Notes under the pieces: model-generated
Told to the model about the DNA's origin: nothing
What the model saw: only the letters and a program-made list of their open reading frames with translations
Database searches by the model: none
Translations under genes and position numbers: made by a program
Shown here: positions 7,249-32,165 of the stretch, piece by piece
How the letters are laid out: each line of letters begins with the position of its first letter
How positions within the stretch are numbered: the stretch's first letter is position 1
Assembly: GCF_000708265.2 (NCBI RefSeq)
Contig: NZ_JCKI01000002.1
Span: 744,001 to 808,000 of the forward strand
Direction of reading: 5' to 3'
Length of the DNA: 64,000 nucleotides
DNA from: Pedobacter sp. R20-19
Lineage (GTDB): Bacteria; Bacteroidota; Bacteroidia; Sphingobacteriales; Sphingobacteriaceae

Positions 7249-7254
7249 AAAATT

Positions 7255-7560: not shown

Positions 7561-7576
7561 CGAATCTTAATATAAA

Positions 7577-12982: not shown

Positions 12983-13025
12983 ACTGTTCGCTCCCGCACA
13001 ATAGCTGTTCGATAATGAACAGCTA
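12983..13025. promoter_or_regulatory. Candidate enhancer (activator) site: CTGTTCG half-site plus dyad
   Basis: TAGCTGTTC (13002-13010) is inverted exactly as GAACAGCTA (13017-13025) around 6 bases. A further CTGTTCG half-site lies at 12984-12990, exactly 21 bases (two helical turns) from the CTGTTCG at 13005-13011. The sites lie 105-150 bases before the adaptor start, where NtrC-type activators bind. A degenerate TTGGCAT...TTGGA (13084-13099) sits between, but its spacing is one base short of a sigma-54 promoter. The link to the adjacent regulator is inference. Confidence 0.45.
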
Positions 13026-13130
13026 AAAATAGCTAAAAAAATTAAATTGCTGTTTAATAGTGTTTTAAGTCTTGTTGTGCTAATTGGCATAAGCTTGGAT
13101 ATTAGGCAAATCAAACAGTGAAACCAAACA

Positions 13131-14375
13131 ATGGACAAAAAAATAGAGAAGAAAAGATTTAGCACTAAAACCTTAATTATAATAGGTGGGGCAGTTGCTT
13201 TTGTAGCGGTTGTAATTTATGGCTATACTCTATCGCTAAAGAAAACTTACAGTGCAGATGCAGATAAATTAACAATTAGCAAAGTTGAATATGGTGATTT
13301 TGAAGATGTTGTTCTCCTCAATGCCAGTGTGGTTCCATTAACGTCTGTTATTGTAAGTTCATCGGAAGGAGGAACCGTAGCAGAAATCTTTACCGAAAAC
13401 GGAGCATCTGTAGTAAAAGGGACGCCATTATTACGCATTGCAAACTCGAATGCGATGTTAGGTTATACTTCACAACAAACTGCTGCAACAGAGCAAATTA
13501 ATCAGTTACGTAAATCAAGGTTGGATCTAGAGCAAAATCAACGCATCTTAAATCAGGATGTTTTAGATGTAGAAAATAACTTACGCACCGCTACACGCCA
13601 GTATAGATTAGACAGTTCCTTATATTTAAAGAAAGTAATTACACTTCAGGAATTCAATAAATCAAGTCAGGATTACGAATACTATCAAGGTAAACTGAAA
13701 ATTGTTAAACAAGCCATTAAACAAGAAAATCAGAGTAGAAAAATGCAACTGGCGCAAATAGACCAGTCGATGGGGCAAATGAATGAGAGTTTGGAAATGA
13801 TCCGTAAGAATATTGAAAACATGACCATCAAAGCGCCCGTTTCCGGAAAATTATCGTCTTATGATCCGGTTACAGGAAAATCTTATAACTCCAATGAAAT
13901 GATTGGAAAAATCGATGTACTCCAGGGATACAAATTGCAGGCTGGTGTTGATGAATATTACATCAATCGGGTTAAAGAGGGGCAAACGGCCAGTTGTGAA
14001 TTTAATGGTAAAAATTATAATTTAACAGTAAGTAAAGTTATTCCAGAGGTTACTGCAGGTCAGTTTCAGGTAGAAATGGTTTTTAAAGGTGCTGCACCAG
14101 AAGGCTTGCGTAGGGGTTTATCGCTTCAAACAAAATTAACCTTATCTGATAACAGTAAATCATTATTGCTCGCACAAGGTCAGTTTTTCCAAAGTACGGG
14201 AGGCTCGTGGGTGTTTGTGGTAAGCAATGGTAAAGCCATTAAGAAAAATGTTAAAATTGGTCGGAAAAATTACCTTTATTATGAAATTTTAGATGGTTTA
14301 GCCAAAGGTGATGAAGTGATTACCTCATCTTACGATCAATTTAACCAGTACGACCAGGTGGAGATTGGGAAATAG
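13131..14375 (+). CDS. HlyD/MacA-type periplasmic adaptor of the ABC export system
   Basis: This gene encodes 414 aa. A basic N-terminus and one membrane segment (about 13-33) anchor it in the inner membrane. A biotinyl/lipoyl-like half-motif follows (GGTVAEIFTENGASVVKGTPLLRI, as pieces near 80-105), then a long coiled-coil hairpin (about 115-230) and the second lipoyl half (TIKAPVSGKLS, near 240). Beta-barrel and membrane-proximal domains close the protein. It should link an inner-membrane MacB-like transporter to an outer-membrane channel, but no TolC gene is present in the window. It is the first gene of the export array and diverges from the NtrC/NtrY pair. Confidence 0.9.
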   Translation: MDKKIEKKRFSTKTLIIIGGAVAFVAVVIYGYTLSLKKTYSADADKLTISKVEYGDFEDVVLLNASVVPLTSVIVSSSEGGTVAEIFTENGASVVKGTPLLRIANSNAMLGYTSQQTAATEQINQLRKSRLDLEQNQRILNQDVLDVENNLRTATRQYRLDSSLYLKKVITLQEFNKSSQDYEYYQGKLKIVKQAIKQENQSRKMQLAQIDQSMGQMNESLEMIRKNIENMTIKAPVSGKLSSYDPVTGKSYNSNEMIGKIDVLQGYKLQAGVDEYYINRVKEGQTASCEFNGKNYNLTVSKVIPEVTAGQFQVEMVFKGAAPEGLRRGLSLQTKLTLSDNSKSLLLAQGQFFQSTGGSWVFVVSNGKAIKKNVKIGRKNYLYYEILDGLAKGDEVITSSYDQFNQYDQVEIGK

Positions 14376-14502
14376 GGAGGTGATAAGTCGGTTAGATGGG
14401 GCAGGTGGTTAGGTGAAGAGTTGGGTAATATGAATAGTAAAAAAATATAAAGATATAATCAGGTCTCGATACTTGATATTACATACTTGATACTTATAAG
14501 CG

Positions 14503-15201
14503 ATGATTAAAATAGAAAATCTGGAAAAAGTTTACAAAACTGAAGAAGTAGAAACTACTGCGCTGAATGGAATTAACCTTCATGTAAAAGAGGGCGAATT
14601 TGTTTCCATCATGGGGCCATCAGGCTGTGGAAAATCCACCCTGTTAAATGTAATGGGGTTATTGGATAAACCTGAAAGCGGAAGTTATAAGTTTATCGAT
14701 ACCGAACTTTTAACTTTAAATGATAGAGAACGTTCCAATTTCCGGAAAAGAAATATGGGCTTTGTTTTTCAGAACTTTAACTTAATAGACGAGTTAACCG
14801 TTTTTGAAAACATCGAACTGCCTTTAATTTACAATAAAATTCCGGCAGGTGAACGGAAGCAATTGGTTAATGAAATCATTGAAAGGATGAACATTGTAAA
14901 CCGAAGTGGCCACTTTCCACAGCAACTTTCGGGTGGACAACAACAGCGGGTTGCTGTAGCCAGGGCATTAGTAACCAAACCTAAATTGGTTTTAGCCGAT
15001 GAGCCTACCGGAAACTTAGATAGCTCTCATGGTAATGAGGTAATGGAGTTGCTTTGCGAACTTAATGAAACCGGAACCACCATTGTAATGGTAACACACT
15101 CCAGTCATGATGCTAGTTTTTCAAACAGAATTATCAATCTGAAGGATGGACATGTGATTTCTGAAAAGATAAACAAGAGCAGAAACGAGGAATTGATATA
15201 A
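14503..15201 (+). CDS. ABC transporter ATPase (MacB/LolD type), first of two
   Basis: This gene encodes 232 aa, a stand-alone nucleotide-binding domain. It has Walker [10 protein letters not shown] (about 38-46), the Q-loop region [10 protein letters not shown], signature [15 protein letters not shown], Walker [14 protein letters not shown] with a normal D-loop, and H-loop MVTHSS. All catalytic elements are canonical. It should energise FtsX/MacB-type permeases in a mechanotransmission-style exporter. It lies between the adaptor gene and six permease genes, 127 bases after the adaptor. The preceding gap carries CTTGATACT-type repeats like those before the permeases. Confidence 0.92.
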
Positions 15202-15346
15202 AAATAAGCTGAAAGCTTAAAGCACAAAGATTAATGTGCTTAGCCTTATGATAATAAGAATTTAGTTTAGTTAATGATAGCCAACCGAAATCTTCCTGGA
15301 TGGGAGGATTCGGGACAGGCGCTGATTATCTTAAACCTAAAAAACC

Positions 15347-15388
15347 AAAGACTGAAGATTAAAACGGTTTGCAGGTGCTTTAGTCTTT
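15347..15388. repeat. Hairpin of the array spacer family, upstream of permease 1
   Basis: The 235-base gap 15202-15436 ends with this hairpin. AAAGACT-type and AGTCTTT arms flank GGTTTGCAGGTGCTT. A single CCTGATACT repeat follows just before permease 1. The earlier part of the gap has AAGCTGAAAGCTTAAAGC and GATGGGAGGATTCGGGAC-like words and no gene. Confidence 0.55.
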
Positions 15389-15436
15389 CTGCTTTTAGCT
15401 CTTAATACCTGATACTAATTAATTGACCCTACAAAC

Positions 15437-17806
15437 ATGTTCAAATTAAACTTAAAAATCGCTTTGCGAAACCTTTGGAAAAATAAAGGATTCTCTTTGA
15501 TCAATATCGGAGGTTTAGCCATCGGCTTAGCCAGTTGTATGGTTTTGCTCATATATGTAGCTTATGAGTGGAGTTATGACAAGCAATTTACCAATAACGA
15601 TAAAACTTATGTGATTTATCAAAATATGGAGGCGAATGGTAAAACTTTTAGTTGGGCATGGACCCCTAATGTAATGGCCAAAGAAGTGCAGGAGAAATTA
15701 CCAGGAGTTAAATATGCATCACATTCTACCTATCCACGAGCTAACCTAATCACCGTTGGTAACAATAAAGTAATTAGCAAGGTTGTATTTGCTGATCCTT
15801 CTTTCCTTAAAATATTTGATTATAAATTTATTAAGGGGAATCCTGTAAAGGTTTTAGAGAATTTAAATTCTATAATCCTAACAAAATCATTTGCAAAGAA
15901 GCTATTTGGAGATGAAGACCCAATTAATAAAACTGTCAAACTGGAAAATCAGGATGTTTTGAAAGTAGAAGCCGTTATAGAAGATAGCCCAGCCAATAGC
16001 AGTATAATTTTCGAATGTATCATGCCATGGGATTTGTTTTTGAAGAGAGAGACGTGGGCAAAGGAGAATAATTGGGGTAATAATATGTGCTTAACAATGG
16101 TTCAGTTGCAGGATAATAAATTTTTTCCGGCGGCAAATGCTTATATACATGATATTTATAAACGCAATCAAAAAGAAAACCTGTCGGTTGCATTATTGCA
16201 TCCTTTATCCAAATGGCACTTATATGGTGACTTTGTAAATGGAAAATCTGTAGGTGGGAAAATAGATCAGCTTAAAATATTTTTGTTGTTGGCGTTTTGC
16301 ATCCTGTTAATTGCCTGTGTAAACTTTATGAATCTATCTACCGCCCGTTCAGAGCGCAGAGCAAAAGAGGTTGGCGTTCGCAAAGCTATTGGATCTTCAA
16401 GGCAATCTTTAATCAACCAGTTTTTTTTAGAATCTATCTTAGTTACAGTTGTGGCTACGGTTATTGCCTTTATTTTAGTTGAGGTTAGCATTCCATATTT
16501 TAACAATTTATTAAATATCAAATTAGAAATTGATTATAGCAATTTCAGATTTTGGGCTGCGCTTTTCATTTTAATGATTTTTACTGGATTTATAGCGGGT
16601 AGTTATCCGGCACTTTATCTATCTTCTTTTGAGCCCATTAAAGTATTAAAAGGTTTAAAACTTAAAACTGATTCTTCCGTATCGGTGAGGAAAGTTTTAG
16701 TGGTAGGACAATTCGTTTTTGCTGCCTGTTTAATTGTGTGTACAGCGGTAATCTATCAGCAACTGAATTACATTAAGAATAAACCGATTGGTTATGATCA
16801 ATCTAACCTCATACAGATTGCCGTGCAAGGTAACATGATGAAATATAAAAATCTGGAGTTGCTCAAAACACAATTACTAAAATCTGGCGCTACGAGTGAT
16901 GTAACATTTTTTAGTTCGGACGTTACAGAAGGCGGAAATAATACAATCGATATAGATTGGCCAGGGAAGAATCCTAACGAAGTCATTTCTTTTAACCATA
17001 GATCGATAGGTTATGATTTTATAGAAACCATGGGGACAAAATTAATAAGCGGAAGGGAATTTTCTAAGCAATTTCCAGTAGATAGTAGCAGTGTAATGTT
17101 AAATGAGGCAGCAGTTAAAATGATGGGTTTGAAGAATCCAATTGGTGCGGTGATCACTTTTTGGGGTACCAGGTTCACAAACGTTGGTGTTGTTAAAGAT
17201 TTTGTTGTAGAAAGTGCCTACCAGAAGGTAGCGCCAATGATTTTTCGATTAAATACCAGTGAGGATATTAGCGTCATTATAGCAAGGCTAAACCCGAATC
17301 AGAATATGAGTTCGTCGCTGGCTACAATTGATGAAGTAGTGAAAAATATGGAGCCAAATTATCCTGTAAACCGAAAATTTGTAAACGAATCTTTCGAGGT
17401 TAAATTTCAGGATGAAAAAGTATTAGGTTCACTTGCTAACTGGTTTGGCGGTTTTGCCATATTTATTTCATGTTTAGGCTTGTTAGGGCTGGCACTTTTT
17501 ATGGCCGAGCAGCGCAAGAAGGAAATCAGTATACGTAAAGTTTTAGGTGCGAGCACGGCCAACATCCTAACACTTTTAAATAAGGATTTTATCAAACTCG
17601 TTGCAATTGCCAATGTGGTTGCCTTTCCACTGGCTTATCTGGTCATTAATAAATGGCTTTCTGCCTTCGAATACCGTGTTGATATATCATTTTTGCCATT
17701 TGCACTTGCCATTACAATATCTGTTTTAATTGCTGTTTTAACCGTAAGCATTCAATCTGTAAAAGTGGCAAAAGCCAATCCTGTTGATGCTTTGAAATAC
17801 GAATAA
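15437..17806 (+). CDS. FtsX/MacB-type ABC permease 1
   Basis: This gene encodes 789 aa. A membrane helix near 20-42 is followed by a periplasmic MacB-PCD domain (about 45-270) and three helices (about 280-400, including the RRAKEVGVRKAIGSS coupling-helix motif). A further helix, a second periplasmic domain (about 430-660) and three more helices follow (with QRKKEISIRKVLGAS). The duplicated FtsX fold without its own ATPase is standard for Bacteroidota permeases. It ends VDALKYE. With permeases 3 and 4 it forms a subtype marked by AEQR before the last coupling motif. The substrate is unknown; macrolides, peptides or lipoproteins are family options. Confidence 0.9.
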   Translation: MFKLNLKIALRNLWKNKGFSLINIGGLAIGLASCMVLLIYVAYEWSYDKQFTNNDKTYVIYQNMEANGKTFSWAWTPNVMAKEVQEKLPGVKYASHSTYPRANLITVGNNKVISKVVFADPSFLKIFDYKFIKGNPVKVLENLNSIILTKSFAKKLFGDEDPINKTVKLENQDVLKVEAVIEDSPANSSIIFECIMPWDLFLKRETWAKENNWGNNMCLTMVQLQDNKFFPAANAYIHDIYKRNQKENLSVALLHPLSKWHLYGDFVNGKSVGGKIDQLKIFLLLAFCILLIACVNFMNLSTARSERRAKEVGVRKAIGSSRQSLINQFFLESILVTVVATVIAFILVEVSIPYFNNLLNIKLEIDYSNFRFWAALFILMIFTGFIAGSYPALYLSSFEPIKVLKGLKLKTDSSVSVRKVLVVGQFVFAACLIVCTAVIYQQLNYIKNKPIGYDQSNLIQIAVQGNMMKYKNLELLKTQLLKSGATSDVTFFSSDVTEGGNNTIDIDWPGKNPNEVISFNHRSIGYDFIETMGTKLISGREFSKQFPVDSSSVMLNEAAVKMMGLKNPIGAVITFWGTRFTNVGVVKDFVVESAYQKVAPMIFRLNTSEDISVIIARLNPNQNMSSSLATIDEVVKNMEPNYPVNRKFVNESFEVKFQDEKVLGSLANWFGGFAIFISCLGLLGLALFMAEQRKKEISIRKVLGASTANILTLLNKDFIKLVAIANVVAFPLAYLVINKWLSAFEYRVDISFLPFALAITISVLIAVLTVSIQSVKVAKANPVDALKYE

Positions 17807-17880
17807 AAGCTAAAAACTTAAAGACTAAAGCTGATGGCTCATGTCTTGATACCTGATAATAATTGCCTGATACTAAGAAC
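17807..17880. repeat. Array spacer 1: hairpin remnant plus CCTGATA repeats
   Basis: This 74-base spacer has AAGCTAAAAACTTAAAGACTAAAGC-like words in two pieces followed by two CCTGATA copies. It is the shortest member of the spacer family that separates the permease genes. Confidence 0.6.
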
Positions 17881-20259
17881 ATGTTCAAATTAAACTTAAA
17901 AATCGCTTTGCGGAACCTTTGGAGGAACCGTGGAATAACTGCCATTAATATTGGCGGTTTGGCTATTGCTTTAGCTGCTTTCATTTTGGTAGCCATGTAT
18001 TTTACTTATGAAACCAGCTTTGATCAGACAAATCCTAACTACAAGAATATTTATGTGGTTGGCAGGATAGAGCCTGATTTCAAAACCAATTATACCTCTC
18101 CGCCGCTAGCAAAAGTGATCAAGCAAAACTTTCCTGAAGTAGAAAATGCAGGGATTACAAAGATTAACCATTCATGGGAACTGGCTATCAAAAATGGCAA
18201 AAATGCAATTTTTACAAAAAATATTTTGCAGGCTGATTACAACGCCGCCAAAATTTTAGACATTAATCCTATAGGTGGCCTGATTAAGCCCTCCGGTGAG
18301 GTAGAAAGATTAACTTATCTAAGTGTGGAGAACATCAAAACGTTGTTTCCAGATAAGAAAGATAATAAACCCGAAATGGTTAGCTTTGGATCTACCAGTT
18401 CAGGAATAACCGGAACCATTGCCGGTGCCATTGTTAATAATGAACATTCAAATTTTAGCTTCGATGGCGTATCTATAGGTAATGAGATTGGAAAAGGAGA
18501 AAGTTATGGGTACAATAATTACAATACTTTTATTCAGGTAAAACCTGGAACGGATGTTGCAAACCTTCAAGAAAAAATAACTCTTTTATACAGGTCTGAA
18601 TTATTAAAGGCTGAAACTGATTTAAAGGCAATTGATGAAATAAAAGCAGTATCTATATTTTTAGATCCTTTGGCAAATCAGCATTTAAAACCAAAAGCCG
18701 GAAATGATACGCCATACAAAATCTTAATTTCGCTTTCTATTTTAGGTTTTTTAATTCTGGTAATAGCTTGCATTAACTTTACTAACCTCAGCATAGCTCA
18801 GGCAACAAAAAGGGCTAAAGAAGTTGGAATTAAAAAAGTGATGGGTGCTTATCGCCTTCAGCTAACGACTCAATTTTTAACTGAAATATTCATTCAGTGT
18901 TTGGTTGCAACTGTTATGGCGATGATTTTTGCCGAATCGGCATTGCCATATTTTAATAATTTGTTTAAAGTAAACTTAACGCTATGGCATGCTGGTAATA
19001 ACTTATTCTGGCAATTGCCTTTGGTTTTATGCCTCATTACCATCATTGCCGGGATTTATCCTGCTTTAGTTCTATCAGGTTTTAAGCCAGCATTGGTTTT
19101 GAAGGGAAATTTTTCCACCAGTAAACAAAGTTCCTGGTTGCGAAATGGATTATTGGTTTTCCAGTTTAGTATCGCAGTAATTTTTATTATTGGTTTGTTT
19201 ATTATTAACTCGCAGCTCAAATACATGCGAAGCGAGGATTTAGGGTTTTCGGCAAATCAGGTCGTGTATATTAAGAACATCAGCATGTTTAATAAACCTG
19301 AAAAATTCGCTCCTGTTAGAGATAAAATCTTAAAAATCCCGGGAATAAAATCAGTAACTGTAGCTACTGGCGTTCCTGATGGTAGCGAAAATGGAGGTAA
19401 TGGTTATACCGTAAATGGTGTGCAGAAAAGCATTGATTTTGTCGATGTGGATTTTGATTACTTTGAAACACTTGATATTAAATTAAAAGATGGTCGCTTT
19501 TTCTCAAATACCTATAAAACGGATACAGCCAATTCAGCCATTATAAATGAAAGTGCCGTTGCGAAATATGGAATCAAAAATCCAATCGGACAAACAATGA
19601 GAGGCTGTAATATAGACTATAAGATTGTAGGGGTAGCAAAAGATTTTAAAGCACAAGGATTTGAAAGTGCCGTTCAGCCTACTATTTATGCCATAAAAAA
19701 TCCTTGCGGAAATTTCAAAACGCAAATCATGGTTAAAATTGAGGAAAATAAAATGGCAGAAGCTTTGGCTGCTTTGAAAGCACAATGGCCGCAAATAAAT
19801 CCTCAGGATGGCGAAGACTTTAGGTATGAATTTTTAGATGAGCTTTATGGCAAACTATTTAATAAGCAGGAGCAGCTACAATCAGTATTCTTCTCTGCAG
19901 CATTGCTTACCATCTTCATTGCTATTTTAGGCTTGTTTGCCTTTGCAAAATACATCACCAACGGGCGCATCAAAGAGATCGCAGTGCGTAAAATTTTGGG
20001 CGCAAGTGATATTCAAATCTTCAAATTAATTAACAGTTCATTCTTTATGATGGTACTTGCGGCTAATGTAATTTCCTGGCCGGTAGCGTATATCCTAACT
20101 AAAAAATGGCTTGAAACATTTGCTTATCGAATTGAATTGTCTGTTTTGCCATTTATAGTCAGTGCGTTAATCACGATTTTATTAACTGTGTTAACGGTGA
20201 GCATTCAGGCTAAAAAAGCAGTGAAAGCCAACCCTGTGAATGCCCTTAAATATGAATAA
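17881..20259 (+). CDS. FtsX/MacB-type ABC permease 2
   Basis: This gene encodes 792 aa from the ATG at 17881. A TTG at 17863 would add six residues but lies inside the spacer repeat. Its first 32 bases are identical to those of permease 1. The duplicated FtsX fold is as for its neighbours, with coupling motifs KRAKEVGIKKVMGAY (mid) and GRIKEIAVRKILGAS (C-terminal). It shares the LRNGLLVFQFSIAVI region with permease 6 rather than with 1, 3 and 4. The periplasmic domain 1 is diverged from the other permeases. The end is VNALKYE. Confidence 0.9.
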   Translation: MFKLNLKIALRNLWRNRGITAINIGGLAIALAAFILVAMYFTYETSFDQTNPNYKNIYVVGRIEPDFKTNYTSPPLAKVIKQNFPEVENAGITKINHSWELAIKNGKNAIFTKNILQADYNAAKILDINPIGGLIKPSGEVERLTYLSVENIKTLFPDKKDNKPEMVSFGSTSSGITGTIAGAIVNNEHSNFSFDGVSIGNEIGKGESYGYNNYNTFIQVKPGTDVANLQEKITLLYRSELLKAETDLKAIDEIKAVSIFLDPLANQHLKPKAGNDTPYKILISLSILGFLILVIACINFTNLSIAQATKRAKEVGIKKVMGAYRLQLTTQFLTEIFIQCLVATVMAMIFAESALPYFNNLFKVNLTLWHAGNNLFWQLPLVLCLITIIAGIYPALVLSGFKPALVLKGNFSTSKQSSWLRNGLLVFQFSIAVIFIIGLFIINSQLKYMRSEDLGFSANQVVYIKNISMFNKPEKFAPVRDKILKIPGIKSVTVATGVPDGSENGGNGYTVNGVQKSIDFVDVDFDYFETLDIKLKDGRFFSNTYKTDTANSAIINESAVAKYGIKNPIGQTMRGCNIDYKIVGVAKDFKAQGFESAVQPTIYAIKNPCGNFKTQIMVKIEENKMAEALAALKAQWPQINPQDGEDFRYEFLDELYGKLFNKQEQLQSVFFSAALLTIFIAILGLFAFAKYITNGRIKEIAVRKILGASDIQIFKLINSSFFMMVLAANVISWPVAYILTKKWLETFAYRIELSVLPFIVSALITILLTVLTVSIQAKKAVKANPVNALKYE

Positions 20260-20396
20260 AGCTAGAAGCTAAAAGACCAAAGCTTAAAGCGATTTGCAAG
20301 GAGCTTTAAGCTTTCACCTTTCAGCTCTTAATACCTGATACTTACTACCTGTACCTGATACTTACTACCTGATAATTAATACTTTATACTATAAAA
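20260..20396. repeat. Array spacer 2: 12-bp perfect stem and TACCTGATACTTAC repeats
   Basis: AAAGCTTAAAGC (20279-20290) is inverted exactly as GCTTTAAGCTTT (20303-20314), and outer arms add further pairing. Repeats of TACCTGATACTTAC type run from about 20331 to 20380, just before permease 3. Confidence 0.65.
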
Positions 20397-22775: not shown

Positions 22776-22907
22776 AAGCTGAAAGCTAAAAGACCAAAGC
22801 TTAAAGCGATTTTGAAAGAGCTTTAAGCTTTTACCTTTCTGCTCTTAATGCCTGATACTCACTACTTGATACTTACTACCTGATACTTACTACTTGATAC
22901 TATAAAA
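22776..22907. repeat. Array spacer 3: hairpin plus four tandem 14-bp repeats
   Basis: A hairpin with AAAGCTTAAAGC and GCTTTAAGCTTT arms is followed by four head-to-tail 14-mers: 22851-22864, 22865-22878, 22879-22892 and 22893-22906. Each is a version of C(C/T)TGATACTTACTA, and the last ends one base before the permease 4 ATG. Confidence 0.75.
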
Positions 22908-25289
22908 ATGTTCAAACTTAATCTAAAAATAGCCATTAGAAACCTTTGGAAGAATAAGGGATTCACTTTAATAAATATCGGTGGACTTGCTATTGGTATG
23001 GCTTGCTGTTTGATGTTGCTGCTTTATGTAAACTACGAATGGAGTTATGACAAGCAGTTTAAAAACATTGATAAAATCTTCATCACAGGGTTAAATCTAA
23101 AGATTAACGGCAAACTGGCTACTACTATGGCCATACCAAATAAGCTTTCGAAAGCTGCGATGGAAGAATTACCAGGCTTTAAACGAAGTGCAAGGGCATC
23201 AAATGAAAATAATGTAAAACTGTACAGCCATGGTCGAGATAATTTCAAGCTGACCTCATTATATGTTGATCCTGATTTTATTAAAATTTTTGATTATCAT
23301 TTTATTTATGGCGATGTCAATACGGCATTAAATGAACCCAGCTCATTAATCATTAATGAAAGCACAGCTAAAAAACTATTCGGCAATCAAAATCCTATCG
23401 GACAGAGAATCACATATGATGGTAAAAAAGAGCTTGAAGTCAGTGCTGTTATTGAAGATTTACCAAAAAATCAAAGCATGCAATTTGATGTCTTACATCC
23501 ATGGTCATTTTTAGATCAGCTAAATCCCGGTGATAAAGAAAATCCCTGGGGCACAATTACATGTTTTACCTATTTCGAGTTAAAGGATAATGTATCGGTG
23601 GAAGCAACGAATAAATTGTTGCAGCATTTCATCGTTAATAAGGAGCCTGACTTAAAAAAAATGACGTATGAGCCATTCCTTTTTCCATTTGCTAAAATGC
23701 ACTTGTATGATGACTTTGAGAATGGGAAATCTGTAGGTGGCCGTATGGACCAGGTTCGGCTATTTGTATTTCTCGCTTTTTGCGTGCTTTTAATAGCTTG
23801 TATAAACTACATGAACCTTTCTACGGCACGCTCAGAGAAACGGGCCCGTGAAGTTGGGGTTCGTAAAGCTTTGGGTTCTTCAAGAAAAACAATAATGGGT
23901 CAGTTTATGATTGAATCGTTAATTCTTTCATCTATTGCCATGCTCATCGCATTTACCTTGTTGGAAGTATCGTTGCCCTACTTCAATAATTTACTGGATA
24001 TCAAAATTATCATAAAATATAGCTCAGCCCCTTTTTGGATAACGCTTTTCACAATGGTTTTCATCACTGGTTTATTGGCAGGGAGTTACCCGGCATTTTA
24101 TCTTTCTTCTTTCATTCCGGTAAAGGTTTTAAAGGGTTTTAAAGGTTCCATAGGATCACTATCTATCCGTAAAACTTTAGTAGTACTACAATTTAGTCTA
24201 TCAATTTGTATGATTATTTCTGCCATTGTGATTTACAATCAGATTCAATATATGCGAGATAAACCTTTAGGATTTGATGTTGCAGCTTTAGCTCAAATTG
24301 ACTTGGAAGGGGAGTTGGCTAAACCTGGTAAACTTGAGATTTTTAAGAACGAACTTAAACGAGCCGGGGCGATAGAATCAGCAAGTGAATACGCAGGTGC
24401 TTTTACCAGGGGTGGAAATATAACTGGGGATATTTCATGGCCCGGAAAAGCAAAAAATGATGTTTCCATAGTGAGTTATAGAAGTACGGGATTTGATTTT
24501 GCCCATACCGCCGGCGTAAAAATTATTGCCGGACGAGACTTCTCTCCACAATTTCCTGCTGATACCTCTACTTCACTAATACTTAACCAGCAAGCTGTTA
24601 AGTTGATGGAATTGAAAAATCCAATCGGTACAGTACTTCACTGGGGAGACAATCCACCAGTTAAAGTTGTTGGCGTGATTCAAGATTTTTTCAATGAATC
24701 GTTAGGTGCTAAGGTATCACCAACTATCTACTATTATAATCTTGAAGATAGCAAGTCTTTATTGTTAAAATTAAATGCAAAGCAGTCTATTACTTCATCA
24801 ATAGATATCATTAAACAAGTAAGTCAGCATATAAATCCTGCTTATCCGACAGAAATCAAATTGGTAAGCGAGGGAATGGCTGAAAAATTAAGGAGTGAAA
24901 AATTGCTGAGCGTACTTTCCAATATTTTTGGTGGTTTTGCCATCTTCATTTCTTGTCTTGGCCTCCTTGGATTAGCACTTTACATGGCCGAGCAGCGAAG
25001 TAAAGAAATCAGTATTCGTAAGGTTTTGGGTGCTCAATTATCGGATATTTTAGTATTGCTGAATAAGGATTTTATAAAGCTGGTTCTCATTTCGAACATT
25101 ATCGCAATTCCGGCAGCTTATATTTTAGTAAGTAAATGGTTAGAAAAATATGATTATAAAATCACGATCAATTCATGGCCTTTTGTAATTGCACTCATAA
25201 CATCTATCATTATTGCTGTTTTAACCGTGAGCCTGCAAACTTTTAAAGTGGCCAAAGCCAATGCTGTTGACGCACTTAAATATGAATAA
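22908..25289 (+). CDS. FtsX/MacB-type ABC permease 4
   Basis: This gene encodes 793 aa. It shares SYDKQF with permease 1 near residue 47 and AEQRSKEISIRKVLGAQ near the C-terminus, so these two are the closest pair by eye. It has the same eight-helix plan, with KRAREVGVRKALGSS mid-protein, GRDFSPQF in the second periplasmic domain and VDALKYE at the end. No ATPase domain is present. It must use one of the two ATPases encoded at the array ends. Confidence 0.9.
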   Translation: MFKLNLKIAIRNLWKNKGFTLINIGGLAIGMACCLMLLLYVNYEWSYDKQFKNIDKIFITGLNLKINGKLATTMAIPNKLSKAAMEELPGFKRSARASNENNVKLYSHGRDNFKLTSLYVDPDFIKIFDYHFIYGDVNTALNEPSSLIINESTAKKLFGNQNPIGQRITYDGKKELEVSAVIEDLPKNQSMQFDVLHPWSFLDQLNPGDKENPWGTITCFTYFELKDNVSVEATNKLLQHFIVNKEPDLKKMTYEPFLFPFAKMHLYDDFENGKSVGGRMDQVRLFVFLAFCVLLIACINYMNLSTARSEKRAREVGVRKALGSSRKTIMGQFMIESLILSSIAMLIAFTLLEVSLPYFNNLLDIKIIIKYSSAPFWITLFTMVFITGLLAGSYPAFYLSSFIPVKVLKGFKGSIGSLSIRKTLVVLQFSLSICMIISAIVIYNQIQYMRDKPLGFDVAALAQIDLEGELAKPGKLEIFKNELKRAGAIESASEYAGAFTRGGNITGDISWPGKAKNDVSIVSYRSTGFDFAHTAGVKIIAGRDFSPQFPADTSTSLILNQQAVKLMELKNPIGTVLHWGDNPPVKVVGVIQDFFNESLGAKVSPTIYYYNLEDSKSLLLKLNAKQSITSSIDIIKQVSQHINPAYPTEIKLVSEGMAEKLRSEKLLSVLSNIFGGFAIFISCLGLLGLALYMAEQRSKEISIRKVLGAQLSDILVLLNKDFIKLVLISNIIAIPAAYILVSKWLEKYDYKITINSWPFVIALITSIIIAVLTVSLQTFKVAKANAVDALKYE

Positions 25290-25379
25290 AAGCTGAAAGC
25301 TAAAAGACCAAAGATTAAAGCGGTTTTGAAGGAGCTTTAAGCTTTTAATACCTGATACTTACCACATGATACTATAAAA
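25290..25379. repeat. Array spacer 4: hairpin plus CCTGATACTTACC repeat
   Basis: AAAGCTGAAAGCTAAAAG and an AAAGATTAAAGC/GAGCTTTAAGCTTTT pairing are followed by CCTGATACTTACCACATGATACT, a two-copy version of the tandem repeat, before the permease 5 ATG. Confidence 0.6.
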
Positions 25380-27779
25380 ATGTTAAAACTTAACTTAAAA
25401 ATAGCCTGGAGAAACCTTTGGAAAAACAAGGGTTATACATTCATTAATGTTCTTGGTTTATCCATCGGGATGGCGAGCTGCATTCTGATTTTCATTTTTA
25501 TCCGTTATCAAATGAGCTTTGATGAGGGTTTTAAAAATGAAGATAGAATTTATCGTATAACCACTAATTGGACTACGGCTGATGGATTTGAAGAATCGCA
25601 GGGTGTACCTAAACCAGCACCTGCTGCATTGCGTAACGATTTTAAAAAACAAATCGAAAAAGTTGGTTCTATCCGTCAGGATGGTGGAATTATAAAAGTA
25701 AAAGACGATGCCGGAAAAGAACGGGTCAAAGTTTTAGAAGACGTGTTTTATGCCGAACCAGAGTTCTTCCAAATTATGAATTTTGATTGGCTGCAAGGAA
25801 ATCCGATACAATCGTTAAGCCAACCCAACACGGTGGTTTTATCAAAAGATATGGCAACTAAACTATTCGGAGACTGGAATAAAGCTGTGGGTAAAACCAT
25901 TAATTATCAAAATAGAGAAGATTTTACGGTTACTGGAATTTTGCAGGAAATACCCGAAAACAGTTCTTTTCCACTTGGTATTGTAGTTTCATATCAAACA
26001 TTTAAAAATTACAACGACCCAAGTTTTAAAGAGTGGGGCAATACTTCTTCAAATGATGAATGTTATTTTCTATTAAAAAAAGGCACTTCAATTGATGAAG
26101 TTCGTGGTGCTTTACCAAAGTTTTCTGAAAAATATTTCCAAAAAGATTTAATATCAAAAGAACAAATTAGTACACAAGCATTAAGCGATATTCATTACAA
26201 CGAAAATTTAGGGAATTTTGCCAACAAAACTATGCCTGTAAAAGAACTTTATGGCTTAGCAATTATTGGTGCATTTCTATTGTTAACAGCTTGTATTAAT
26301 TTTATAAATCTGGCTACGGCGCAAGCCGTAAGTAGAAGTAAAGAAGTTGGTGTACGTAAAGTAATGGGCAGTTTAAGAAAGCAATTGGTTTTTCAATTTC
26401 TTACCGAAACATTAACGATTAGTGTATTTGCCTTGCTTGTGGCCTGCGTATTAACTGAAGTTGCATTACCCGGCATGAAAAGTTTATTCCAGGATAATAT
26501 TTCGTTCAGCATCATCAGCCATCCAATTATACTGGTTTTTATGGTTGGATTAGTATTGATCGTAAGTTTTTTAGCGGGTTTTTATCCTGCAATGGTGATG
26601 TCGGGCTTTAGTCCTGCCTTGGCCATTAAAAACAAAGTTAAGGCAAATGCAGGTGGTTTAAGTTTGCGTAAGGTTTTGGTGGTTGTTCAATTTTCTATTA
26701 CCGTAATTTTAATTATTGGTACGCTTGTCGTATTAAAACAAATGAACTACATGAGGGAAAAACCATTAGGTTTTAATCCATCGGCCATAGCAATGGTAAG
26801 TGTTAGAAACGATAGTTTAAGCGTATTGAAGTATCAAATTTTAAACGATAGAATTTCAAAAATACCAGGTGTTTTAACAACAAGCTTTTGCCGGAATCCA
26901 CCATCGTCAGAAAATAATAATGAAAGCATTTTTAGATATAATGGTGCTGAAAAGGCAAAGTTTCAAGCAAATACTAAACTTGCGGACGAGAATTATTTTA
27001 AAACGTTTGGATTAAGCCTCGTGGCTGGAAAGGGGTTTGCTAAAAGTGATACTTTAAGAGAAATAGTAGTGAATGAAACATTATTAAAAAAACTCAATGT
27101 TGTAGACTTTAATGATGCTTTAGGAAAAAAAATTACCATTTGGGGTAAAACCGGGACTGTTGTCGGGGTAGTTAAAGATTTTAATAATTTGAGCTTACAC
27201 GAGCCAATTTCCCCTATAATTATTACTTCAATAAAAGAAAATTATAAAAATTTGGCTGTTAAAATGGATAGCAAACAAATTTTATCAATCATGCCACAGA
27301 TTGAAAAAATCTGGAACGATACCTTTCCAGAGAACTTTTACTCAGCCTCATTTGTGGACGATGATATTAGTAAATATTACGAAACAGAACGAGTAATGGG
27401 CGTTTTATTTAAGGTTTTTGCAGGTGTAATTATTTTTATATCATTTATTGGTTTATTTGGCTTAATATCGTTCGTAGCAACACAGAGAACTAAAGAAGTT
27501 GCCATTAGAAAAGTATTGGGCGCATCTACCTTAGAATTAGTGAAAATGCTAAATGGTTCATTTTTATTAATGGTTTTTATCGCAAATCTGGTGGCCTGGC
27601 CTTTAGCCTATTTATTCGTTTCGAAATGGCTTTCTACATTTACCTATCGGATAGATTTAAGTATTTGGCCTTTTGTTTTGGCTATGGTAATTTCTATGCT
27701 GATCACTTTAATAACCGTTAGTTTTCGCTCATTTAAAGCTGCTAAAGCAAATACCATTGATGCACTGAAATATGAATAA
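25380..27779 (+). CDS. FtsX/MacB-type ABC permease 5
   Basis: This gene encodes 799 aa starting MLKLNLKIAWRNLWKN. The mid coupling motif is SRSKEVGVRKVMGSL and the C-terminal one TQRTKEVAIRKVLGAS, so it groups with permeases 2 and 6 rather than with the AEQR subtype. The first periplasmic domain carries NWTTADGFEESQGVPKPAP-like sequence typical of a common Bacteroidota permease subfamily. It ends IDALKYE. The reading frame is intact and the length is normal. Confidence 0.9.
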   Translation: MLKLNLKIAWRNLWKNKGYTFINVLGLSIGMASCILIFIFIRYQMSFDEGFKNEDRIYRITTNWTTADGFEESQGVPKPAPAALRNDFKKQIEKVGSIRQDGGIIKVKDDAGKERVKVLEDVFYAEPEFFQIMNFDWLQGNPIQSLSQPNTVVLSKDMATKLFGDWNKAVGKTINYQNREDFTVTGILQEIPENSSFPLGIVVSYQTFKNYNDPSFKEWGNTSSNDECYFLLKKGTSIDEVRGALPKFSEKYFQKDLISKEQISTQALSDIHYNENLGNFANKTMPVKELYGLAIIGAFLLLTACINFINLATAQAVSRSKEVGVRKVMGSLRKQLVFQFLTETLTISVFALLVACVLTEVALPGMKSLFQDNISFSIISHPIILVFMVGLVLIVSFLAGFYPAMVMSGFSPALAIKNKVKANAGGLSLRKVLVVVQFSITVILIIGTLVVLKQMNYMREKPLGFNPSAIAMVSVRNDSLSVLKYQILNDRISKIPGVLTTSFCRNPPSSENNNESIFRYNGAEKAKFQANTKLADENYFKTFGLSLVAGKGFAKSDTLREIVVNETLLKKLNVVDFNDALGKKITIWGKTGTVVGVVKDFNNLSLHEPISPIIITSIKENYKNLAVKMDSKQILSIMPQIEKIWNDTFPENFYSASFVDDDISKYYETERVMGVLFKVFAGVIIFISFIGLFGLISFVATQRTKEVAIRKVLGASTLELVKMLNGSFLLMVFIANLVAWPLAYLFVSKWLSTFTYRIDLSIWPFVLAMVISMLITLITVSFRSFKAAKANTIDALKYE

Positions 27780-27865
27780 AGCTAAAAGACTAAAGCTTGA
27801 AGCGATTTGCGGGTGCTTTAGTCTTTATGCTTTTCGCTCTTGAATACTAAATACTAAATACTCGT
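27780..27865. repeat. Array spacer 5: AAAGACTAAAGC/GCTTTAGTCTTT hairpin
   Basis: AAAGACTAAAGC is inverted exactly as GCTTTAGTCTTT around a loop rich in GCGATTTGCGGGT. Three AATACTAA/ATACTC words then lead to the permease 6 ATG. Confidence 0.65.
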
Positions 27866-30271
27866 ATGTTCAAACTCAATCTAAAAATAGCCTGGCGAAA
27901 CCTTTGGAAGAATAAGTTTTATGCCTCCATTAATATTACTGGTTTAGCAATAGGATTAACTGCTTTTGTGCTGTTATTACTATATGTTAATTACGAGGAG
28001 AGCTATGACACATGGTCGCCAGAGTTAAAAAATGTTTATCAGGTTAGGGCATTTCATTCTTATAACGCCCCGGACAACAAGCAATATTGGCAGACTTCAA
28101 ATGAAAGTAGAATTGCTGCATTGCTGAAACAAAATATTCCTCAAATCAATGCCATCACAAAAGTTGAAAACGATTGGTATCAAAATTATGCCCTAACCGT
28201 TAAGAATCGCAAGTCATTAATGATCAAAGGGATACGTAATGCAGATTCAGCCTTTTTTAAAGTGATGCCACATAGCTTTTTAAAAGGCAATGAGGCAACA
28301 GCATTGAGCAAACCGAATAGCATTGTGCTGAAAAAGGACTTGGCATTAAAGCTTTTTGGTAATGAAGAAATTATTGGTAAAACCATTAGCATAGTAAGGT
28401 GGGAAGGGGATGCCGTTACAGATTTTACAGTTACAGGCATTGTTTCGGAGCCCAATACGCCGCAAAGTGTTAATTTTTCAGGTATAATTCATACAGGCGA
28501 GTTTGATAAAGATAATCAAAACCCAACAATGCATAGATATATGGAAATTTATGCCAGGCTATTTAATCATGAGAATTTAAATCAAATAAATGAAAATGTA
28601 AAGAAAGTATACATCAATAATTTGAAAAGTACATTTACGGACAGTCAGTACTCTTATGCAGAATTTTTAAAATCAGGCAATCTACCAAATTGTAAACTAT
28701 TTCCTATAGACGAAGCTCATCAAAATCCTCCTTTTATAGCTAGTTGGATAGAAAAGATTAAGCCTGTTTCTTTAATCGTTACCTTTTTACTTTTAATATC
28801 CATTATTAACTTTATTAATTTAGCTACTGCACAGTCATTTCAAAGAGCTAAAGAAGTTGGTGTTAAGAAGGTGCTTGGCTCAAATAAAGGTTTACTCGTG
28901 TGGCAATTTTTAATGGAAACAGGATTGCAAAGTTTGTTTGCCTTATTAATTTGCGGTGTGCTTATAGAATTATTTTTACCAGCATTTAATCAGCAATTGG
29001 GTTTGAATATTAGCTTTTGGTCAAATCAAAAATTGTTTTTTATACTCCTACAGCTATTTGGGTTATTCTTAATCATTACCCTGCTGGCTGGCTTTTATCC
29101 GGCAACAGTGTTATCAAACTACAAACCCGCCGCTGTATTAAAGGGAAGTTTTTCTAATAGTCATAAAGGCCTTGTATTGCGTAATTCATTAATTGTATTA
29201 CAATTCGTGATTTCAGTTACACTGATCATTGCAATAGGAACAATGCAAAAGCAGGTGAGCTTTATGAATCAAAAAGACTTGGGGTTCGATAAGAGTCGTG
29301 TGATTAATATCAGCGCTAACTATAATAAAAAAATCGCAAATGATATTAGAAAAGTTTCAGGGGTGCAATATGTTGGTGCTACCACACAGGTAATTGGAAA
29401 CACGTATGCTTATGCAGATAAGATTAATTTTCAAGGTAAAAAGTTGAATCTAAACATGGTAACAGTAACCATGGAAGCGTTTCCTGCCTTAGGTATAAAA
29501 CCATTACAGGGGCGGCTTTTTTCATCAATTTATAGACAGGATACTATAAATACCGTAGTGCTGAATGAATCTGCAGCAAAGCAGTTAGGAGGTGTAGTCG
29601 TAGGTAAACAATTCAGATCCTATGAAAATGTTTTTCAAATCATTGGTGTAATTAAAGATTATCATGCAGAATCATTTGATAAATCTATCATTCCAACTAT
29701 ATATAAGGTAACCTATTTAGGAGGCATGAGTGCAAATGGAAATTTGCTTGTTAGGTTTAACTCCAGTCATTATCAGATTATTATTAGAAAAATTGAGGAG
29801 GTTTGGAAAAAATATTATCCTAATTACCCTATGAACTATCAATCTTTGAATGATGCATTCATTCATAGTTTGGAAGATAATAGCCGTTTCATGAACATGA
29901 TCGTCATATTTAGTATAATTTCTGTTTCACTGTCTTTATCAGGCTTATTTGCCTTATCCACTTTTGTGGCCAAACGAAGAACAAAAGAAGTAGCGGTAAG
30001 AAAGGTGTTAGGCGCATCAAATATGCAAATCATTAATCTGCTCAATAAATCTTTTTTACATTTAGTTATTGCGGCTAACATAATCAGCTGGCCTATTGCT
30101 TACATCCTGATCAAAAAATGGCTTGATGGATTTGTTTATCGGATAGATATGCCCGTTTTACCCTTTATCATGGCAACAATTACTTCTGTGATTATAGCCA
30201 TTTTAACGGTAAGCATTCAAGCTAGAAAGGCTGCTATCGGTGATCCTGTTAAGGCACTTAAATATGAATAA
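27866..30271 (+). CDS. FtsX/MacB-type ABC permease 6
   Basis: This gene encodes 801 aa starting MFKLNLKIAWRNLWKN. It has the duplicated FtsX fold, QRAKEVGVKKVLGSN mid-protein and KRRTKEVAVRKVLGAS near the C-terminus. The YKPAAVLKGSFSNS region resembles that of permease 2. The end reads VKALKYE, but the preceding residues (AAIGDP) differ from the usual AKANP of the other five. It is the last permease before the second ATPase. Confidence 0.9.
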   Translation: MFKLNLKIAWRNLWKNKFYASINITGLAIGLTAFVLLLLYVNYEESYDTWSPELKNVYQVRAFHSYNAPDNKQYWQTSNESRIAALLKQNIPQINAITKVENDWYQNYALTVKNRKSLMIKGIRNADSAFFKVMPHSFLKGNEATALSKPNSIVLKKDLALKLFGNEEIIGKTISIVRWEGDAVTDFTVTGIVSEPNTPQSVNFSGIIHTGEFDKDNQNPTMHRYMEIYARLFNHENLNQINENVKKVYINNLKSTFTDSQYSYAEFLKSGNLPNCKLFPIDEAHQNPPFIASWIEKIKPVSLIVTFLLLISIINFINLATAQSFQRAKEVGVKKVLGSNKGLLVWQFLMETGLQSLFALLICGVLIELFLPAFNQQLGLNISFWSNQKLFFILLQLFGLFLIITLLAGFYPATVLSNYKPAAVLKGSFSNSHKGLVLRNSLIVLQFVISVTLIIAIGTMQKQVSFMNQKDLGFDKSRVINISANYNKKIANDIRKVSGVQYVGATTQVIGNTYAYADKINFQGKKLNLNMVTVTMEAFPALGIKPLQGRLFSSIYRQDTINTVVLNESAAKQLGGVVVGKQFRSYENVFQIIGVIKDYHAESFDKSIIPTIYKVTYLGGMSANGNLLVRFNSSHYQIIIRKIEEVWKKYYPNYPMNYQSLNDAFIHSLEDNSRFMNMIVIFSIISVSLSLSGLFALSTFVAKRRTKEVAVRKVLGASNMQIINLLNKSFLHLVIAANIISWPIAYILIKKWLDGFVYRIDMPVLPFIMATITSVIIAILTVSIQARKAAIGDPVKALKYE

Positions 30272-30382
30272 AGCTTAAAGCTTAAAGCTAAAGCTTAAAG
30301 CGATTTGCGGGTGCTTTAGTCTTTCTGCTTTTCGCTTTAAGCTCCAAATACCTTATACTAAATTACTTGATACTAAAATAAA
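30272..30382. repeat. Array spacer 6: AAGCTTAAAGC repeats, hairpin and CTTGATACT
   Basis: Three overlapping GCTTAAAGC words and a hairpin whose right arm reads GGTGCTTTAGTCTTT are followed by TTACTTGATACTAAAATAAA just before the second ATPase start. The spacer family therefore extends past the permeases to the terminal ATPase. Confidence 0.6.
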
Positions 30383-31069
30383 ATGATAGAACTTAAAAAT
30401 ATCGAAAAATACTATTCCAGTAAAGGCATTAAACACTATGTTTTGCGCCATGTAACCACCACCATTAAGCAAGGTGAATTTGTTTCCATTATGGGGCCGT
30501 CAGGTGCGGGGAAGTCCACCTTATTAAATATTCTGGGGATGTTGGAAGAACCCACCTACGGAACATACGAGTTTATGGAAGAAGATGTAACCCGTTTAAA
30601 TGAACGGAAACGCATTGAACTTTACCGTAACCACATCGGTTTTGTGTTTCAGGCTTACCACTTGATTGACGAAATGACGGTTTATGAAAATATTGAAGCG
30701 CCTTTGCTTTATAAAAAGGTTGGTGGTGCAGAAAGAGCCAGTAGAATTGCCGATTTATTAGATCGTTTTAATATGGTAGCTAAAAAAGATTTGTTTCCCA
30801 ATCAGCTTTCAGGAGGTCAGCAGCAATTGGTAGGCATTGCCAGGGCATTGGCTGCGCAACCTTCTATTATTCTTGCTGATGAACCAACCGGGAATCTTCA
30901 ATCTACACAAGCAGAAGAAATTATGCAACTCTTTCAAAAACTAAACAAGGAAGATGGCATCACGATAATTCAGGTTACACACGCTGAAAAAAATGCACAG
31001 TATGGAAACAGAATCCTAAACATTGCAGATGGTGTAATTAAAGACGACTTTTTAGTAACAACTACTTAG
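30383..31069 (+). CDS. ABC transporter ATPase, second of two, with atypical signature and D-loop
   Basis: This gene encodes 228 aa. Walker A is GPSGAGKST (about 39-47), the Q-loop region is FVFQAYHLID, Walker B IILADEPTG and H-loop VTHAEK. Two positions depart from the MacB/LolD norm. The signature reads LSGGQQQLVGIARAL (Leu where Arg is usual), and the D-loop reads GNLQS instead of GNLDS. The catalytic Glu and His are kept. It may pair with the first ATPase as a heterodimer or serve a subset of permeases. It ends inside the convergent downstream gene (8-base overlap, 31062-31069). Confidence 0.9.
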   Translation: MIELKNIEKYYSSKGIKHYVLRHVTTTIKQGEFVSIMGPSGAGKSTLLNILGMLEEPTYGTYEFMEEDVTRLNERKRIELYRNHIGFVFQAYHLIDEMTVYENIEAPLLYKKVGGAERASRIADLLDRFNMVAKKDLFPNQLSGGQQQLVGIARALAAQPSIILADEPTGNLQSTQAEEIMQLFQKLNKEDGITIIQVTHAEKNAQYGNRILNIADGVIKDDFLVTTT

Positions 31070-32165
31070 GTAGTTTTACTTTATAAATTCGGTAAGGATA
31101 GTCTGTTCTGTCCTTATCATTATTGTATTTCGCTTGCCTGTTTATTTGTGAGCAGCTAAGGTATAAGTAACCATCATTCCCTATGCCAAAAGAATCTGGC
31201 CAGCTCAACCGCTGGTCGGTTACTAAATTATGCAGCTTTCCATCCGGACTTACATATTTAATTGAATAATCTGGTGATGAACTGAGGTAAACGTTTCCTT
31301 TGTTATCCGCTATCATGCCATGGCAAACTCCAGTCTCGGCAACCATTTCTACAGCTTGCGAAATTTCTGCTTCACTTAATTTGTTATTCGCTAAAAACTG
31401 AGTTTTAATTCGATACAATTTAGTCTGATTAATTGCCCTGAAATAAAAATATTGATTATCATGCGTTAAAGCTATTCCATTTACATTTGAATTAAACGGT
31501 TTACCTGCATCGTCTACCACATCATGGTTATCTAAATGAAGGATGAAACCTGGATCTGCCAATGTGGCTTTATCTCTTTGAAGCACTATTCTCGATTTTC
31601 CAGATTTTAGATCCAACACTATAATGGCACTCAAACCCGGGTCTGATAAATAAGCAAGCTGTTTGTCATGATCGATCACCATGTCATTAAGTGCACTTTT
31701 ATCTTTTGGCAAATCATCAAAATGATAAATATTGACCACCTTGTTGGTAGCCAGATTTATTTGTAACAGCTTAAAGTAACCTTCTTTCTTCTGCTTTTGG
31801 TCACCCCCAAAAATCGAAGCGCCACCAGCAGGTTTAGAATCCAGCACCCATAGAAAGCCCTTTTCATCTGCATATAAGTCCTGTACGTTCACAAAATGAC
31901 TATCGGTATTGGTGCTATCTACTTCATTCCATTCTTTATCAGGATAAGACTTTCTTTTACCATTAATAATTTCTGTTAACCCATATACATAAGGTTCGCG
32001 CTTCGGAAATGATACAAATAGTCTATTGGTTTTAGAAGAAACACTTACGCCGATTGGTTGATTTTTTCCAAATGAAGCTACTTCAATAATTTTAGATTCC
32101 TGAGCCCTTATTTTATTGATAAGTAAAATGCTGATAACGAGTGCGCATGTAATAACCTTTTTCAT
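31062..32165 (-). CDS. Secreted major-royal-jelly/Yellow-family protein
   Basis: This gene encodes 367 aa. An N-terminal signal peptide (MKKVITCALVISILLINKIRAQ) predicts export. The rest is a six-bladed beta-propeller-like sequence typical of the MRJP/Yellow family: FGKNQPIGVSVSSKTNRLFVSFP in the first blade, DLYADEKGFLWVLDS, LNDMVIDHDKQLAYLSD, GIALTHDNQYFYFRAI and SWPDSFGIGNDGYLYLS. Bacterial members are mostly uncharacterised; insect relatives include dopachrome-converting enzymes. Its stop overlaps the convergent ATPase gene by 8 bases. A small hairpin (31060-31075) covers both stops. No promoter box was recognised. Confidence 0.85.
   Translation of the reverse strand: MKKVITCALVISILLINKIRAQESKIIEVASFGKNQPIGVSVSSKTNRLFVSFPKREPYVYGLTEIINGKRKSYPDKEWNEVDSTNTDSHFVNVQDLYADEKGFLWVLDSKPAGGASIFGGDQKQKKEGYFKLLQINLATNKVVNIYHFDDLPKDKSALNDMVIDHDKQLAYLSDPGLSAIIVLDLKSGKSRIVLQRDKATLADPGFILHLDNHDVVDDAGKPFNSNVNGIALTHDNQYFYFRAINQTKLYRIKTQFLANNKLSEAEISQAVEMVAETGVCHGMIADNKGNVYLSSSPDYSIKYVSPDGKLHNLVTDQRLSWPDSFGIGNDGYLYLSCSQINRQAKYNNDKDRTDYPYRIYKVKLPK

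Follow-up and report, generated by a model that had tools for sequence, protein, structure and literature searches.

Several described transport systems resemble, each in part, an array of exporter-like genes in a 64,000-nucleotide stretch of the Pedobacter sp. R20-19 genome (RefSeq assembly GCF_000708265.2, contig NZ_JCKI01000002.1, forward-strand positions 744,001 to 808,000), hereafter the window. In group II ECF transporters, one heterodimeric ATPase module is common to many membrane components encoded in trans, and the darobactin exporter DarBCD has one permease. The 'acidobacterial duplicated orphan permease' (ADOP, TIGR03434) is defined by having no ATPase gene nearby. MacB is described as a homodimer with a fused ATPase in PMC5985334, which also gives the rule that a permease fusing two units has its ATPase on a separate protein. 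E. coli YbbP, as described in PMC12646458, is a single permease chain of 10 transmembrane (TM) helices with two linker helices, which binds and works with two ATPases in an assembly of two YbbA, one YbbP and one TesA. The Pedobacter array is probably a modular, inducible, tripartite Type VII ATP-binding cassette (ABC) exporter, in which interchangeable permeases would use one shared chassis; no published description of it was found in literature searches.

Architecture of the array and its permeases

The array occupies positions 13131-31069 of the window on the plus strand, where nine intact open reading frames (ORFs) lie head to tail. The periplasmic adaptor (membrane fusion protein) A (13131..14375) and the stand-alone ABC ATPase D1 (14503..15201) are followed by six permeases of about 790 amino acids, P1 (15437..17806), P2 (17881..20259), P3 (20397..22775), P4 (22908..25289), P5 (25380..27779) and P6 (27866..30271), and by a second stand-alone ABC ATPase, D2 (30383..31069). 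The ORF of P2 begins with a TTG at 17863, its probable and conserved start being the ATG at 17881. A sensor histidine kinase (HK) and an NtrC-type sigma54-activating response regulator (RR) are encoded divergently and adjoin the array. The arrangement of one adaptor, six permeases and two ATPases, as given in the initial annotation, is borne out by ORF coordinates and Pfam. Its assignment to an ATPase-driven, adaptor-linked exporter family is likewise supported by HlyD_3 and HlyD_D23 in A, ABC_tran in D1 and D2, and MacB_PCD with two FtsX stretches in every array permease. Genome-wide, 12 of the 19 MacB_PCD matches lie in the six array permeases, the other seven being in frames of 409-434 amino acids and one of 852.

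The permeases resemble ADOP in their internal duplication, their length of about 800 amino acids and their many paralogues, some of which have no ATPase. All six align with most or the whole of the ADOP profile, but with 237-330 bits, far under the cut-off of 622.3, and they are framed by a cognate adaptor, two ATPases and a regulator. The absence of a neighbouring ATPase gene applies only to their orphan relatives described below, as D1 and D2 enclose the array permeases. Eight of the 14 genomic matches of this profile lie in the array, and no match outside it covers a full-length duplicated permease. ADOP also serves as a RAST label, for which 28 and 33 copies are given in two Dyadobacter species (PMC11573002).

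The NCBIfam models of the DarBCD adaptor and ATPase are the best matches of A, D1 and D2 (DarD for D2), and for the permeases the DarBCD permease model ranks second, yet all score under the curated cut-offs (A 234.5 against 450 bits, D1 287 against 375, D2 249.9 against 375, permeases 65-156 against 700); for A, RND_mfp is over its cut-off and the DarC-like model below. The single permease of DarBCD also differs from the 2-9 found in Pedobacter arrays. The adaptor in the operon, the MacB_PCD/FtsX fold and, in other genera, TolC are shared with MacAB-TolC, although the array ATPases are not fused to permeases. E. coli YbbAP (Type VII ABC; 9GE6) is alike in its duplicated permease, two periplasmic domains and separate ATPase, but the array permeases have 8 TM helices and are accompanied by an adaptor and two different ATPases. 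The likeness to group II ECF transporters is one of working principle; these are importers of another fold, and no homology is claimed.

The N- and C-terminal halves of the permease are homologous (hhalign 99.3%, E 5e-20). An AlphaFold2 model of P5 (pLDDT 83.6, pTM 0.77) displays eight TM helices in two MacB-type units, with coupling helices at residues 320-328 and 704-712, TM and coupling helices being assigned by inspection. The unit typical of Type VII ABC systems, four TM helices of which TM1 is followed by a large periplasmic domain and TM2 by a coupling helix, occurs twice in this model, and D1 and D2 are separate genes, as is characteristic of a fused two-unit permease with a separate ATPase protein. 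Its best structural match is YbbP (9GE6; Z 24.7, root-mean-square deviation 9.7, 676 residues aligned). Taken by itself, the N half resembles chains of MacB, LolC and FtsX, and the C half resembles LolC/E chains and the MacB periplasmic domain. Each array permease is, as judged from its sequence and the P5 model, a tandem duplication predicted to form a complete pseudo-dimer in one chain.

A constant frame and two distinct ATPases

Seventy-three named loci were fetched and arrays completed from their genomes; the 56 with D1 and D2 both in view are called complete. Loci L022, L034, L036, L038, L039, L043 and L066, which run off contigs or were left incomplete, were omitted from the counts, as were L008 and L010 (used in the tree only, no D1 being in view) and L056 (same genome as L042). 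The 56 arrays hold 2-9 permeases in 44 layouts, mainly of six lineages: two permeases in 2 arrays, three in 3, four in 8, five in 12, six in 12, seven in 12, eight in 5 and nine in 2, the nine of Pedobacter sp. V48 including one split permease counted twice. The frame genes are median 86-98% identical to those of the window, D1 being the most conserved (98%), followed by A (94%), RR (93%) and D2 (88%), and the adaptor precedes D1 wherever the flank was read. The presence of both ATPases in the 56 arrays is by selection, but their occurrence on one contig in 35 of 35 genomes reached via array or orphan loci is independent of it. The smallest arrays, in P. cryoconitis and strain JY14-1 (L137 and L139), have two permeases of one lineage each; these genomes give 10 and 7 genome-wide matches to the duplicated-permease profile, most of them outside the array, and one of the 7 is a single-unit protein of 405 amino acids.

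D2 shares 46% identity with D1 and is a distinct ATPase lineage, devoid of the D-loop aspartate throughout the sequences compared. The motifs of D1 are canonical and its D-loop reads NLDS in 57 of 57 sequences, while that of D2 reads NLQS in 57 of 58 readable sequences (59 in all) and NLHS in one from another family. Among 21 D2 sequences of other genera and families, the NLHS one included, the aspartate position is occupied by N, H or S and never by D. The residue after the signature (LSGGQQQLVG in the window D2) is L in D2, or I in a few other genera, versus R in D1. In a set of 19 genomes (g1), D1 and D2 occur together in 14 and are both absent from 5 (E 1e-60); these five, and three more without a D2 match at 1e-75, contain no full-length duplicated permease. 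The simplest reading of these sequence patterns is that D1 and D2 would form an obligate pair with one altered site.

An alternative is that two neighbouring exporters merged by chance, with D1 homodimers serving some permeases and D2 homodimers others. The location of the ATPases at opposite ends of the array agrees with such half-systems. So does the fact that one genome of another family, and some other genera, encode D2 away from A-D1 or away from permeases. With its Walker A, the Walker B Glu, the Q loop and the H loop all retained, D2 may also hydrolyse ATP alone. The joint retention or loss of the two ATPases in the 19- and 35-genome sets, while permease lineages and orders change, and the lack of the D-loop aspartate in every readable D2, speak against it and make this arrangement unlikely.

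Control of the array and distribution of its parts

The HK (9941..11299, minus strand; Pfam HATPase_c and PAS_8) has a homologue more than 60% identical beside 25 relatives, and the RR (11366..12736, minus strand; Response_reg, Sigma54_activat, HTH_8) was compared across 26 Pedobacter loci for the median identity given above. Two conserved enhancer-like dyads of TGTYCG-N4-YGNACA-like pattern, TGTTCGCTCCCGCACA (12985..13000) and TGTTCGATAATGAACA (13006..13021), precede A in the window, and such dyads are exactly 21 bp apart in 25 of 27 Pedobacter regions. They are followed by a conserved sigma54-like promoter, TTGGCATAAGCTTGG (13084..13098, plus strand), a TTGGCAC-type/CTTGG element starting 77-79 bp after the start of dyad 2 in 22 of 27 regions; in the remaining five, the alignment rows end early, with the ORF start set too far upstream. 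No second exact copy of the array dyads or promoter lies within the window, and RpoN is encoded by one gene in the genome. An NtrC-type activator, RpoN, a -24/-12-type promoter and upstream dyads together predict a sigma54/NtrC-controlled operon. The common regulation proposed in the initial annotation is accordingly likely, in view of the single sigma54-like promoter and two enhancer dyads before the adaptor, though internal promoters of other kinds are possible; scans for sigma70 promoters and terminators performed at chance level and say nothing on internal promoters. An association of sigma54 with COG0577 permeases in Bacteroidia is already described in PMC12316311.

A wider regulon within this genome was considered and rejected. 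In 5 Mb, the dyad pattern recurs at just two places, one intergenic (beside an aconitase-like ORF, by inspection) and one within an ORF, and is taken as chance there, a reversed control pattern giving as many matches (5 and 5).

In related genomes, the same sites are found in trans. Twelve full-length lineage-B permeases occur at 11 Pedobacter loci without an adjacent stand-alone ATPase; 11 of these orphans have a dyad and 10 the promoter pattern. All 16 dyads in 236 kb of orphan loci are upstream of a permease, 15 of them within 400 nt of an intact one and the sixteenth 157 nt before a permease split into two ORFs (L071:5968-8416, Pedobacter sp. V48), although the loci are related to one another and these counts are not independent. 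The shared sites suggest that orphans and array belong to one regulon, and they provide the best evidence that the two may share parts.

Within the family, 63 of 121 genomes, from 15 of 25 genera, gave a D2 match (E 1e-75); across the class, 29 of 296 did. Class-wide, duplicated permeases (E 1e-60) were detected in 29 of 29 genomes with D2 versus 26 of 267 without (Fisher p 3e-25, not corrected for kinship; only nine candidates per genome were scored for D2 and three for permeases). In other genera of the family, A, D1, permeases and D2 are contiguous in 10 of 15 stretches and TolC directly follows D2 in 9 of the 15 (Pfam OEP confirmed for two reference genes); as these stretches were picked mostly for permeases beside D2, they exaggerate the frequency of the tight array. 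Among 20 stretches of other genera, 14 have a permease no more than two ORFs away from D2. In one genome of another family, A-D1 and D2 each occur at a single locus, apart from each other and with no permease in the stretches read. Its duplicated permeases are scattered: 24 of the 26 with frames of about 800 amino acids were read in 20 regions, a stand-alone LolD-type ATPase adjoined a permease in none of these, and two ABC proteins three genes from permeases are UvrA and an ABC-F protein. Some of these scattered permeases (L184, L189, L196) adjoin their own NtrC-type regulator and kinase, the regulator being 48-53% identical to the window RR.

That the system expels envelope-active compounds is a guess made from the adaptor, TolC and the sigma54 control. 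The permeases might instead extract lipids or lipoproteins in the manner of Lol or YbbP, or act as mechanosignalling modules feeding the HK, like Bce flux sensors. Such roles would suit the fold neighbours of the P5 model, which include YbbP, LolC/E, BceB and FtsX, and the kinase adjoining the array. An adaptor before D1 and the TolC after D2 in other genera fit trans-envelope efflux, and rapid permease turnover seems to fit variable substrates better than housekeeping, which leaves an extractor or sensor function doubtful.

Permease lineages, spacers and the proposed exporter

The motif AEQR is present in P1, P3 and P4 and replaced in P2 (TNGR), P5 (ATQR) and P6 (AKRR). P1, P3 and P4 are mutually 42-51% identical, while P2, P5 and P6 are mutually 32-33% identical and as distant from one another as from the former three (31-33%). 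The 326 Pedobacter array permeases comprise six main lineages and rare ones; P1-P6 represent lineages A-D-B-E-C-F, one each, and AEQR marks lineages A, B and E (177 of 179 among the 326 relatives). Lineage B occurs in 53 of 56 complete arrays. In a midpoint-rooted tree containing 74 of the 326 after thinning, from which permeases outside 740-880 amino acids were dropped, lineages A, C, D, E and F are each monophyletic (support 1.0) and lineage B includes the 12 orphans (0.993). A, B and E group with three small lineages and the orphans in one clade (1.0), C, D and F being separate clades. As a whole, and subject to the midpoint rooting, the array permeases are not one clade, permeases of other genera falling among them. 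Of the two subtypes proposed earlier, the AEQR-bearing P1, P3 and P4 do form one clade, but a non-AEQR subtype is rejected, for P2, P5 and P6 represent three further, equally distant lineages. Stepwise duplication is upheld in part, the P1/P3/P4 clade showing some.

Judged by P3, the named arrays closest to that of the window are those of P. rhodius and P. frigidisoli, at 89% identity. Identity of the window permeases by slot is uneven against both P. rhodius (A 76, D 83, B 89, E 90, C 65, F 58%) and strain AJM (A 67, D 89, B 86, E 69, C 57, F 85%), which could reflect hidden paralogues or horizontal replacement. Within one lineage, identity falls to 50-63%. The periplasmic domains are the most variable parts (mean within-lineage identity 50-72%), and the N-terminal 20 residues (86-92%) and the C-terminal FtsX unit (77-89%) the least.

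Combinatorial mixed dimers of AEQR-type and other permeases, as put forward in the initial annotation, are in keeping with the occurrence of several lineages in most complete arrays (54 of 56 layouts). The premise that two permeases of about 790 amino acids must pair is wrong here, since each polypeptide already contains two MacB-type units, as evident from the half-to-half homology, the P5 model and the 676-residue match to YbbP. As the permease is a whole pseudo-dimer and YbbP, according to PMC12646458, binds two ATPases as one chain, mixed dimers of the six permeases are neither needed nor likely. Arrays of C-C or B-B only, with both ATPases kept, also exist, though their genomes hold more permeases elsewhere, and pairing of permeases is considered very improbable. 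Combinatorial variety does exist, but in the set of permeases that an array contains and perhaps also in the ATPase pair. The initial annotation was right in its observation and wrong in its mechanism; the larger finding is a putative exporter in which interchangeable permeases share one chassis.

Six of the seven spacers between D1 and D2 (15202-15436, 20260-20396, 22776-22907, 25290-25379, 27780-27865 and 30272-30382) are copies of one quasi-palindromic module, with the reference copy at 20258..20351 (plus strand) and further copies near 15332, 22775, 25289, 27771 and 30270. The six best genomic matches of a 94-nt spacer are all in the array, those elsewhere being weaker and mostly short among the 40 of 67 candidates scored; spacers score 66 within the array versus a mean of 20 (best 71) for 27 other intergenic regions of the window. 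A genome-wide repeat is on these grounds rejected as the whole explanation. When folded as single-stranded DNA, five of the six spacers give hairpins that beat shuffles (z -2.3 to -3.9) and one does not (z -1.1), a mere resemblance to an integron cassette array, for which no integrase search was made. In 41 of the 44 arrays compared (of the 56), spacers are more alike within an array than to those of other species, though the flanking permeases are old and divergent. Descent of the spacers with their permeases alone is also rejected, as pairs beside different lineages score 40 within arrays versus 20 between arrays (532 pairs). Paralogous spacers are closer than the closest orthologue in only 22 of 42 arrays, indicating that homogenisation is real but slow; in 16 of these 22, by count, the closest orthologue is at most 87% identical. 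This pattern suggests recombination or conversion acting on the spacers, a possible cause of permease turnover.

Neutral tandem duplication without functional meaning, for which recent within-lineage duplicates (A-A, B-B-B) could be quoted, is hardly credible when old lineages are kept across the genus, the promoter is conserved and the frame genes are so little changed.

In the exporter proposed here, the HK/RR pair would sense an envelope or chemical cue, and the RR, acting via the two dyads and the sigma54 promoter, would switch on the operon A-D1-P1..P6-D2. Each permease would act as a single-chain pseudo-dimer whose own periplasmic domains give specificity. The D1:D2 pair would dock on its two coupling helices and drive a mechanotransmission stroke, which would force periplasmic substrate through A and on into a TolC-type channel whose gene lies elsewhere in the genome. 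D1, D2 and A would be shared by the array permeases and by ATPase-less permeases with the same promoter elsewhere in related genomes. A tentative extension, less probable than the exporter itself, is a trans-acting platform in which one regulator, one adaptor and one D1:D2 heterodimer with one degenerate D-loop would energise all duplicated permeases of the cell, array and scattered, much as group II ECF modules serve importers. The array would then be a cassette store. Recombination between the quasi-palindromic spacers, which are species-specific and co-homogenised, and conserved gene ends would add, remove and rearrange permeases, and every species would thereby acquire an export repertoire of its own.

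Several observations weigh against the shared-chassis exporter. The case for sharing of D1 and D2 is built on gene counts, on co-occurrence and on promoters in common, all of them sequence evidence, and the further permeases in genomes with C-C or B-B arrays mean that these arrays are no proof that one lineage needs both ATPases. The window promoter departs from the usual GC in its -12 element, a dyad, searched for with the pattern used for the Pedobacter orphans, accompanies only 3 of the 24 scattered permeases of the other-family genome, and the Pedobacter orphans could be served by another chromosomal ATPase. No permease lies within two ORFs of D2 in 6 of the 20 stretches from other genera, so that the tight array is not universal, and no TolC gene is present in the window's array. 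The class-wide counts are not phylogenetically independent. The 26 genomes with duplicated permeases and no D2 match imply that D2 is not universally needed or was missed at the threshold; some belong to one family with many permease candidates per genome, so other partners must exist.

Elsewhere in the same genome, a TolC-type gene (L201:6153-8931, Pfam OEP) is followed by its own adaptor-like ORF; it is a candidate channel that nothing ties to the array. The 3' end of D2 overlaps a convergent MRJP-family gene (31062-32165, minus strand) by 8 bases (31062-31069), and a terminator-like hairpin lies beyond D2 at 31091-31118. A glycogen/trehalose group beside the array (2494-9787) comprises GlgC-like, starch-synthase-like and GH15 genes and a trehalose-6-phosphate synthase/phosphatase fusion. 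An Rfam scan matched only a tRNA.

Duplicated 'orphan' permeases are numerous in some Bacteroidota and labelled 'of unknown function', and the lack of an adjacent ATPase is, in our opinion, one reason why they are difficult to study. The present locus names their probable partners (A, D1, D2 and TolC) and switch (HK/RR and sigma54), so that the question can be put to a direct test. If true, an exporter with a shared motor would, to judge from literature searches, be a novelty for the MacB fold and would widen the view of how ABC exporters evolve specificity; it may also bear on the intrinsic drug tolerance of soil Bacteroidota.

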